Positions 27,889 to 29,416 of a stretch of DNA of 64,000 bases are shown in pieces (the stretch's first letter is position 1; every line of letters starts with the position of its first letter). The notes beneath the pieces are model-generated. The model was not told the origin of the DNA. It was given only the letters and a program-made list of their open reading frames with translations, and did not search any database. The stretch comes from Archangium lipolyticum. Its GTDB lineage: Bacteria > Myxococcota > Myxococcia > Myxococcales > Myxococcaceae. The position numbers and the translations under genes are program-made. Location: the NCBI RefSeq assembly GCF_024623785.1, contig NZ_JANKBZ010000002.1, positions 620,001 to 684,000 on the forward strand, written 5' to 3'.

Positions 27889-28020
27889 ACGAGGGCCCTA
27901 ACATCGATGGGTCTGGGCGACAAGGCAGCCCGACTCCACAGCGGGCATCCAGACAGGGCTCGCGTCTCCTCCCGCCTTTTCTCGTCACCTCCGGCGAGGG
28001 GCAACTCCACCTTCCCAAGT

Positions 28021-28050
28021 GAGCCGGACAGGTATTGCCTCGTCCGGCTC
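28021..28050. promoter_or_regulatory. Perfect hairpin upstream of the peptide gene
   Basis: GAGCCGGAC (28021-28029) and GTCCGGCTC (28042-28050), perfect 9-base arms around a 12-base loop, ending 43 bases before the ATG of the small Cys peptide. It could be an operator or a 5' leader structure controlling the DUF692 pair. Confidence 0.6.
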
Positions 28051-28093
28051 CTCACGCCCTCCAGCGTGTAACCCCCCAGTCAGGAAGAGAGCC

Positions 28094-28252
28094 ATGAACC
28101 AGAATCTCCGTGAGAAGGCCACCCAGCTCCTCGATGTGGCGAGCAACACCCAGGGAATGAAGTCGAGCAGTCCTCTTCCCTGTCCGGCCTGCGGCATGAT
28201 GATGGCGCTGCCCGAGTCCAGCCCCCAACTCGTGACCCCGGCCACCCGCTGA
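28094..28252 (+). CDS. Candidate RiPP precursor peptide with CPACG motif
   Basis: A 52-residue peptide from the ATG at 28094, with an AGGAAGAGA ribosome site 5 bases before it. Residues 1-23 are polar and helical, as in a leader. Residues 24-40 contain SSSPLPCPACGMMMALP, with the only two cysteines (30 and 33), flanked by prolines and followed by three methionines. A polar tail ends it. It lies 18 bases upstream of a DUF692 gene on the same strand. DUF692 enzymes modify cysteine (or other) residues of such peptides in methanobactin, 3-thiaglutamate and bufferin-type pathways. A plain zinc-knuckle peptide is the main alternative. Confidence 0.7.
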   Translation: MNQNLREKATQLLDVASNTQGMKSSSPLPCPACGMMMALPESSPQLVTPATR

Positions 28253-28270
28253 GCGGAACGAACAGCCGCC

Positions 28271-29416
28271 ATGCCGCCTCGCGTGGGTCTGAATCTTCTG
28301 ACCGATGACGCCTTCCGCGAGGCGGTACGGCCGCTCTTCGCCGAGGGGCTGGTCGCCGCGCTCGAGTGGGACATCGACGATTCCTGGGGATTCTCCACCA
28401 GGGCCCTCCCCGGCTGGACCGAGCGCATGCTCGACCTCTATGCGGAGGAGGGAGCCTTGTACGGCCACGGCGTGTGGCTGTCGGTGCTGACCGCCGCCTG
28501 GCAGCCTCGGCAGGAGGCGTGGATCGAGCGTCTCGCCCAGGAGTGCCGCCGCCGCCGCTACCGCCACGTCTCCGAGCACTTCGGCTTCACCGCCGCGGGG
28601 CCGTTCACCCGCAGCACCATGCTGCCCCTGCCGTATTGCACCGCCGCCGTGGACATCGGCCGCGACCGGCTCGAACGGCTGCGCGCCGCCACCGGCGGCC
28701 CCGTCGGCCTCGAGGTGCTGGCCAACACCCTCGCCCCCGTCGATGCGCTCCACCAGGGCCCGTTCCTCGATGCCGTGCTGACCCCCACCGAGGGCTTCCT
28801 GGTGCTCGACGTCCACAACGTGTGGACCCAGGCGGTCAACACCGGCCTGCCTCCAGAGCTCCTGCTCGAGACCTATCCGCTGGAGTGCGTCCGGGAAATC
28901 CACCTCTCGGGTGGGAGCTGGGGCCGCGCGCTCGGCGCCGGGGACTCCAGGCCCGTCCGGCTCGACAGTCACGACGGACCCCTCCTGTCACCCGTGCTGT
29001 CCCTGCTCCGCCGGGCGCTCGCCCTCTGCCCTCATTGCGAGGTCGTCATCGTCGAGCGGCGAAGCGAGACCCTCGAGTCAGAGGAAGTGCGCGCCGGGTG
29101 GCGCGCCCAGTACCGCGCCGTGGTCCAGCTGGTGGCCGAGGCCAGCGCAACCCCCGTCAGCCCGGTCCGTGTCTCCGCCTCCGCGCCGCCCCCCGAGCTG
29201 CTCGACACGGAGGAGCTCGCCCGGTACCAGCGCGAGCTGGTCACGGCCCTCGTCGAGGAGTCCGAGAGCCGGGTCATCCTGCAGAGGCTGCGCCAGGGCA
29301 TCGCCGGCGCACGGCTCGCGCCCTACCTCGAGACCTTCGATCCGCGCATGGTCGAGCTGCTGGCCATCCTCGCGTCACGCTGGTCCGCCTTCGACCCCGC
29401 TCGAGCCACTCCCTGA
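28271..29416 (+). CDS. DUF692 (multinuclear non-heme iron oxidase) family protein with C-terminal extension
   Basis: 381 residues with a TIM-barrel pattern. Conserved positions line up with the metal site of MbnB/TglH relatives: GLNLL at the start, His66 in YGHGVWLS, His103 in VSEHFGF, Glu148 in GLEVLANT, Asp180/Asn183 in LDVHNVWTQAVN, His211 in EIHLSGG, Asp232/His234 in DSHDGP and Glu262 in VER. Deviations are LEVLAN for the usual LEN and VERR for the usual ER/WD. Residues about 305-381 form a helical extension (TEELARYQRELVTALVEES) resembling the start of the DUF2063/TglI-type partner, which is otherwise absent from the locus. It probably oxidises the cysteines of the preceding peptide using iron and O2. 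Confidence 0.82.
   Translation: MPPRVGLNLLTDDAFREAVRPLFAEGLVAALEWDIDDSWGFSTRALPGWTERMLDLYAEEGALYGHGVWLSVLTAAWQPRQEAWIERLAQECRRRRYRHVSEHFGFTAAGPFTRSTMLPLPYCTAAVDIGRDRLERLRAATGGPVGLEVLANTLAPVDALHQGPFLDAVLTPTEGFLVLDVHNVWTQAVNTGLPPELLLETYPLECVREIHLSGGSWGRALGAGDSRPVRLDSHDGPLLSPVLSLLRRALALCPHCEVVIVERRSETLESEEVRAGWRAQYRAVVQLVAEASATPVSPVRVSASAPPPELLDTEELARYQRELVTALVEESESRVILQRLRQGIAGARLAPYLETFDPRMVELLAILASRWSAFDPARATP

Follow-up and report, generated by a model that had tools for sequence, protein, structure and literature searches.

The window, that is, the whole stretch of 64,000 nucleotides from Archangium lipolyticum that was analysed, carries a compact locus in which a short peptide gene precedes the gene of an MNIO (DUF692) enzyme. 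Its features are as follows.

28021..28050, + strand: perfect 9-bp inverted repeat, GAGCCGGAC/GTCCGGCTC, with a 12-nt loop, lying 5' of the peptide gene and lacking a T-run
28094..28252, + strand: gene of a 52-aa precursor peptide of the chryseobasin type with an embedded core, very probably arlA of PMC12636315 (ORF, orthologues, mass)
28181..28204, + strand: core CPACGMMM, residues 30-37 (alignment of five precursors, DNA-pattern search)
28205..28249, + strand: post-core tail ALPESSPQLVTPATR, partly common to two orthologues as ALPxSSxxxVTxxxR (orthologue comparison)
28271..29416, + strand: MNIO (DUF692, PF05114) maturation enzyme of the ChrH-like subfamily, 381 aa, very probably arlH (Pfam, NCBIfam, ligands)
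29192..29413, + strand: ChrH-type C-terminal domain, about residues 308-381, here fused to the enzyme (sequences of relatives; low-confidence helical model)

What the preliminary description had read directly from these bases is present: a peptide of 52 residues with two cysteines (Cys30-Pro-Ala-Cys33-Gly-Met-Met-Met), the stop of which is separated from the start of the DUF692 frame by 18 bp, a good ribosome site (AGGAAG-like) before the peptide frame, and a perfect hairpin just upstream. The hairpin stems occupy 28021-28029 and 28042-28050. In comparisons with 200 shuffled versions each, 28010-28062 folds better than every one (z -5.0) and the longer 28000-28100 better than all but one; a T-run was sought at the hairpin and is absent. 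The four flanking genes that were scanned encode GNAT, metallo-beta-lactamase (MBL), kelch and TPR/cupin proteins. The MBL-fold protein (window:26489-27361) has an N-terminus that looks lipoprotein-like by eye. In NCBIfam an AttM-type lactonase comes closest (E 2.6e-41), although the score of 141.9 bits does not reach the cut-off of 390.

A full-length close relative of the enzyme occurs in 3 of the 145 genomes of the order, including that of the window; the other two are G074 (87% identity) and G083 (81%). The five other genomes of the genus that were searched gave weaker enzyme matches only, the best with E values from 1.8e-11 to 1.3e-17. Both orthologues are preceded by a precursor, CPACGMMMALPESS in G074 and CLACGRLQALPASS in G083, that stops 18 bp 5' of the enzyme gene. 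For the peptide frame, dN 0.20 / dS 0.52 was obtained against one orthologue and 0.39 / 0.66 against the other. The locus is not a product of chance, since orthologous pairs with the same 18-bp gap are found in two other genera of the family and the dN/dS values concern the peptide frame itself. None of six neighbouring genes of the window is matched (E <= 1e-5) in the 11-12 kb around the G074 or the G083 orthologue; the conserved unit therefore consists of two genes. The GNAT, MBL and kelch neighbours were considered as members of the unit and rejected on these grounds.

The CPACGMMM pattern, searched at the DNA level, occurs in 2 of the 145 genomes, once in each and both times adjoining an enzyme of the window type. 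At E <= 1 a search with the peptide alone matches 127 of the 145 genomes, and nearly all of these matches are, in our judgement, due to chance; only the window's own genome (G000), G074 and G083 fall below 1e-5, the next being G129 (0.002) and G089 (0.007). On contig 52 of the window's genome (L038:5580-6256) lies a second copy of the locus, now decayed, with 86% and 96% DNA identity over two stretches. In it a deletion joins approximately codon 9 of the peptide to approximately enzyme codon 66, and the copy lacks its 3' end.

The enzyme matches PF05114 over residues 48-273 (E 4.9e-32, 111.6 bits against a gathering cut-off of 25), and is thus an MNIO. Its best NCBIfam model is MNIO_ChrH (NF050165; E 4e-70, 236.7 bits), followed by BufB with 92.1 bits. 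By these scores its closest characterised relative is ChrH, which assigns it to the ChrH-like subfamily as described in PMC12636315; the score lies below the curated cut-off of 600 that marks a strict chryseobasin equivalog. PMC10880893 lists nine iron ligands of TglH, and the equivalents in the enzyme are H66, H103, E148, D180, N183, H211, D232, H234 and E262. Seven of them were placed through alignment to the TglH chain 8hci, H66 and H103 through 3BWW; judging from the pattern, the latter two are probably the counterparts of TglH His71 and His107. The nine positions are invariant in all five enzyme sequences aligned. The earlier statement that nearly all metal-ligand positions of MbnB/TglH are retained was in fact too cautious, as the TglH set is complete (9/9). 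Seven PF05114 matches are found in the window's genome, counting the window enzyme and the decayed copy.

The C-terminal extension had been read as a fused or reduced partner protein. The extension is real and some relatives encode the domain separately, but it is a ChrH-type domain and not one of the DUF2063/TglI type. According to PMC12636315, all ChrH-family enzymes possess a C-terminal helical bundle of ~7.8 kDa, which is a separate protein in Cyanobacteriota. Of 55 plasmid records, just one, from Hymenobacter, covers 80% of the query; the homologue on it matches residues 5-372 of the enzyme, a match that takes in the extension, and the precursor upstream of it ends in CPACGMG. At L041, a locus described below, the domain is a separate frame that overlaps the enzyme stop. 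A profile built from five tails (window, G074, G083 and Hymenobacter, all fused, and L041, separate) also finds the domain in all of the 19 further loci scanned, either inside the enzyme or directly behind it, the weakest being L085 (E 0.006). The domain lies within the enzyme frame in nine of these (L077, L078, L081, L083, L088, L089, L091, L092, L093) and in another frame near the enzyme stop in ten (L075, L076, L079, L080, L082, L084-L087, L090). With the five seeds, this makes 24 loci, 13 fused and 11 with a separate adjacent frame, although some of the separate frames in draft genomes could be sequencing frameshifts; the enzyme match of L090 contains one in-frame TGA. An AlphaFold model from a two-sequence alignment (mean pLDDT 50.7) predicts only helices in the extension. 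Taken together, the Hymenobacter homologue, L041 and the 19 loci identify the extension as the extra C-terminal domain of the ChrH-like subfamily, by comparison with relatives rather than with ChrH itself, its helicity being that of the low-confidence model. An origin from DUF2063/TglI was rejected through the domain profile, and no Pfam or NCBIfam match to a DUF2063, TglI or MbnC partner was found in the enzyme or the neighbours scanned, which sets the locus apart from systems of the bufferin, pearlin and methanobactin type.

As in the ChrH-like subfamily, the frame ending 18 bp 5' of the enzyme carries a CPxCG core. Cys30, Cys33 and Gly34 are invariant among the five precursors aligned, so the check proposed for the two cysteines beside DUF692 in relatives finds them conserved. 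For the flanking prolines its outcome is the opposite: the proline next to the core cysteine is lost in G083 (CLACG) and in L041 (CYTCG). Met36 and Met37 are likewise replaced in both (CLACGRLQ and CYTCGLVL). The only NCBIfam match of the window peptide is ChrA_rel_RiPP (NF050125; E 0.0085, 16.8 bits, under the curated cut-off of 40), with no match to NF050124 (ChrA) at E <= 1. At the same threshold three of the five aligned precursors match ChrA_rel_RiPP and one NF050124, the G074 sequence in this set being shifted by two residues, with two surplus ones in front and the final two missing; no NCBIfam model is matched by the precursors of G083, L041 and L075. The window peptide continues beyond CPACGM with MMALPESSPQLVTPATR. 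Its core is internal and has no closing Gly, in contrast to the C-terminal CPxCGxG that defines a strict chryseobasin precursor. The tail shares the pattern ALPxSSxxxVTxxxR in all three orthologues, the linker of residues 15-28 is variable, and the tails of L041, L075 and L076 are unlike that of the window. Judged by eye, no Sec or lipoprotein signal is seen on the window peptide.

These features are best appreciated against the described MNIO systems. ChrH is reported to act on the CPACGMG of ChrA, producing a macrocycle, an imidazolidinedione, thioaminals and a thiomethyl group (PMC10214503). The window unit shares with ChrA/ChrH/ChrI the CPACGM core and an MNIO with an additional C-terminal domain. 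It differs in that ChrA ends in CPACGMG and carries an SPI signal (PMC12636315), whereas the window core is embedded and a signal is not evident. The chr cluster moreover adds ChrI, an epimerase and an M42 peptidase (PMC10214503) to what is here a two-gene unit; ChrI (DUF1772), ChrE and ChrP are not among the four flanking genes. ChrI is, however, reported to be dispensable (PMC12452194, PMC12636315). The DybA/DybH pair of PMC12636315 is likewise a minimal precursor plus an MNIO that needs no partner protein, DybH requiring just the seven residues CPACGMG; DybA differs by its lipoprotein signal, its terminal CPACGMG and its sole reported product, an unmethylated -4 Da form. In MelA1/MelH/MelHc (PMC12636315) a C-terminal domain of the ChrH type is necessary for MelH activity, but MelHc is a separate polypeptide and the precursor has 34 kDa, in contrast to the fused domain and 52-aa precursor of the window. 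Methanobactin (MbnBC), 3-thiaglutamate (TglHI) and bufferin (BufBC) systems also employ PF05114 enzymes, and the iron ligands of the window enzyme are as in TglH; they differ by other cores and products and by separate partner proteins, and the ChrH-type C-terminal domain is reported to be absent from MbnB and TglH (PMC12636315).

The closest counterpart is ArlA/ArlH. The account in PMC12636315 (bioRxiv 1 Nov 2025) mentions that CPACGMMM has an internal position in the precursors of some Myxobacteria, and that E. coli producing ArlA together with ArlH from Archangium yields a -4 Da macrocycle/hydantoin product as well as an S-methylated form. These products were assigned by mass, while the structures of the ChrA and DybA products have been reported by others from NMR. 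Two ArlA masses are printed, 6453.07 Da for the unmodified and 6449.04 Da for the modified peptide. When Met1 of the window peptide is replaced by GSSHHHHHH, residues 2-52 give an [M+H]+ of 6453.07, and 6449.04 after the loss of 4 H; the calculated tagged masses thus equal both printed values. The tag was found by trial: for two peptides, 12 tags and the untagged form were each tried with Met1 and without it, 52 masses in total, so that a small look-elsewhere effect has to be reckoned with. When the 351 segments of 35-75 aa that start with Met in the six frames of the window (nested starts counted apart) are all given this tag, the window peptide alone falls within 0.015 Da. Because the calculated and printed masses agree, the window pair is taken as ArlA/ArlH: very probably it is that pair itself, or encodes an ArlA of the same composition. 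The embedded CPACGMMM, the myxobacterial host and co-expression without a partner are further points in common, and a comparison by calculated mass and by the published description found no difference. In the literature searched, PMC12636315 is the sole paper with the CPACGMMM motif. A 2025 survey of chryseobasins and partner proteins (PMC12452194) does not contain the string 'myxococc' in its main text.

We conclude with high confidence that these two genes form a minimal RiPP unit, which belongs to the ChrH-like MNIO subfamily and is of the embedded-core ArlA/ArlH type. Its mechanism can be proposed by analogy with PMC10214503 and PMC12636315. The enzyme, which carries the fused C-terminal domain, would hold iron in its TIM-barrel site, recognise the CPACGM of the peptide and carry out a four-electron, iron-dependent oxidation of Cys33. 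A thioether from Cys30 to the former beta-carbon of Cys33 would close the macrocycle, Cys33-Gly34-Met35 would become a hydantoin beside a thiohemiaminal, and S-methylation would be partial. The assignment to residues of the window peptide, and the view that the native host makes an equal product, are what this analogy suggests. Acceptance of an embedded core would be explained by the fact that all required atoms lie within CPACGM. Our best guess is a macrocyclic peptide made in the cytosol, the leader and tail of which are trimmed by general peptidases. The published account leaves the biological function of the family open (PMC12636315).

The proposal with which the locus was introduced, a new RiPP class in which CPxC and the methionines bind copper and the extension is a reduced partner of the DUF2063/TglI type, now appears very improbable. 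It could draw on the core being embedded and followed by MMALPESS in place of an MG end, and on both proteins scoring under the NCBIfam equivalog cut-offs. A RiPP precursor beside an MNIO is indeed what the locus encodes, but not one of a new class: CPACGM is the core of chryseobasin (PMC10214503) and occurs embedded as CPACGMMM in PMC12636315, contrary to the assertion that it fits no described core; ChrH is the best match of the enzyme; and the reported products of ArlA/ArlH, which have already been tested, are those of ChrH and DybH. Sequence matches in relatives mark the extension as a ChrH-type domain, and two of the methionines, Met36 and Met37, are lost in G083 and L041. Nor do all known DUF692 systems have a separate partner, as had been supposed, given that DybH (PMC12636315) and MovX (PMC12452194) act without one and ChrI is dispensable; the observation that no separate partner gene is found here, among the neighbours scanned, holds good. 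As for the suggested copper or other metal role, nothing was found in its support. The six neighbouring genes have no counterparts (E <= 1e-5) beside either orthologue, so that there is no conserved metal-homeostasis context, and the role is unsupported rather than disproved. The two-gene unit is an already known chryseobasin-type system and not a new class of peptide natural products.

Two other readings concern the peptide. CPxCG is a common zinc-knuckle pattern, and the profile score of the peptide is weak; the small frame might then be a zinc-ribbon-like fragment, or a chance frame beside an orphan enzyme, and no substrate at all. This is scarcely credible when its frame, start, core cysteines and 18-bp gap are kept in two other genera, when the CPACGMMM pattern turns up only next to the enzyme in the genomes of the order, and when ArlA is reported to be modified (PMC12636315). 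A second reading accepts the chemistry of the ArlA/ArlH type and regards the conserved tail as a functional follower, for recognition or export, so that the product would be freed from both sides of the core, unlike chryseobasin. It is suggested by ALPxSSxxxVTxxxR, common to 3/3 orthologues beside a variable linker, and by other relatives with non-terminal cores that, by eye, also lack a signal peptide. The three sequences sharing the pattern are close to one another, however, the tails of L041, L075 and L076 differ, and a follower would be unnecessary for recognition by DybH, for which the seven residues CPACGMG suffice. We regard a functional follower as a tentative idea, on balance rather unlikely.

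The wider relatives show how this chemistry is distributed. The ChrH profile finds 5 of 195 phylum genomes at E <= 1e-20. Two of these matches, G184 and G186, are partial (75-78 bits), and their loci (L045, L046) contain no CxxCG frame under 150 aa. Searching genome contigs with the enzyme produced a single relative, L041, a Deltaproteobacteria MAG labelled Myxococcota in the tree, the MNIO of which is 56% identical to that of the window. In this locus (L041:5847-7106) the precursor ends in CYTCGLVLSKGSI and has a GAG stretch before the core which, by eye, is a possible leader cleavage site. Among 289 genomes drawn from the class of L041, a ChrH-like enzyme was found at E <= 1e-30 in 22, that of L041 being one of them, with 23 matches in total; 19 of the 22 matches other than L041 were read as loci, leaving out the second match in G461 and those in G251 and G446. 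In 15 of the 19, the 700 bp before the enzyme contain a CxxCG frame on the coding strand; none was seen in this range at L078, L081, L083 and L088. Thirteen of the 15 frames end exactly in CxxCGxG, eight with Pro after the first Cys and five without it; in L075 and L076 a tail comes after the core, as in L041 and the window group.

Terminal-core precursors lie upstream in L077, L079, L082, L084-L087 and L089-L093 (n=12). By eye and with a loose pattern, eight of the 12 (L082, L084, L086, L089-L093) show a lipobox-like site after a hydrophobic stretch, in which they resemble the DAG-RiPPs of PMC12636315. The precursor at L080 (L080:1184-1465) ends in GGSGANCPLCGAG, lies beside a ChrH-like MNIO and has a leader of the NHLP type (TIGR03793; 65.6 bits, cut-off 50.9); here a chryseobasin-type core is joined to an NHLP leader. 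Three loci (L078:1480-3666, L081:1489-3633 and L083:226-2376 on the minus strand) have the ChrH-like MNIO and its C-terminal domain fused to a zinc-dependent dehydrogenase (PF08240 + PF00107); in none of the three do the 700 bp upstream contain even a CxxC frame on the coding strand.

In a tree of 27 sequences, of which three are outgroup fragments, two label changes are required to account for the six loci whose core is not terminal; a single change suffices in 56% of 200 bootstrap trees, so that a single origin of this group is possible but not shown. One could go further and propose that the non-terminal-core loci of myxobacteria form a distinct branch of the ChrH subfamily, in which CG-[MLR]-[MLV] and a tail stand in place of the CGxG end and no signal peptide is present. 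The window group would keep ALPxSSxxxVTxxxR as a follower, and the macrocycle/hydantoin would be formed within a cytosolic peptide, not at the terminus of one that is secreted or lipidated. We consider this doubtful; if true, the product would act intracellularly or leave the cell by a dedicated route.

The tempting call of a new RiPP class is thereby corrected, since descriptions of the core, of the enzyme subfamily and of the lack of a partner already exist and the pair itself has probably been assayed. The present comparison adds a few small points: the pair recurs while the surrounding genes do not, the tail is partly conserved, some cores lack the proline, the domain may be fused or separate, and dehydrogenase fusions and an NHLP leader exist. 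Among the myxobacterial relatives, precursors of several kinds seem to undergo this chemistry: some have a terminal core and others an embedded one, and some are lipoprotein-like or carry an NHLP leader. This comparative picture could help to find the purpose of the C-terminal domain and of the product, the question that PMC12636315 leaves open.
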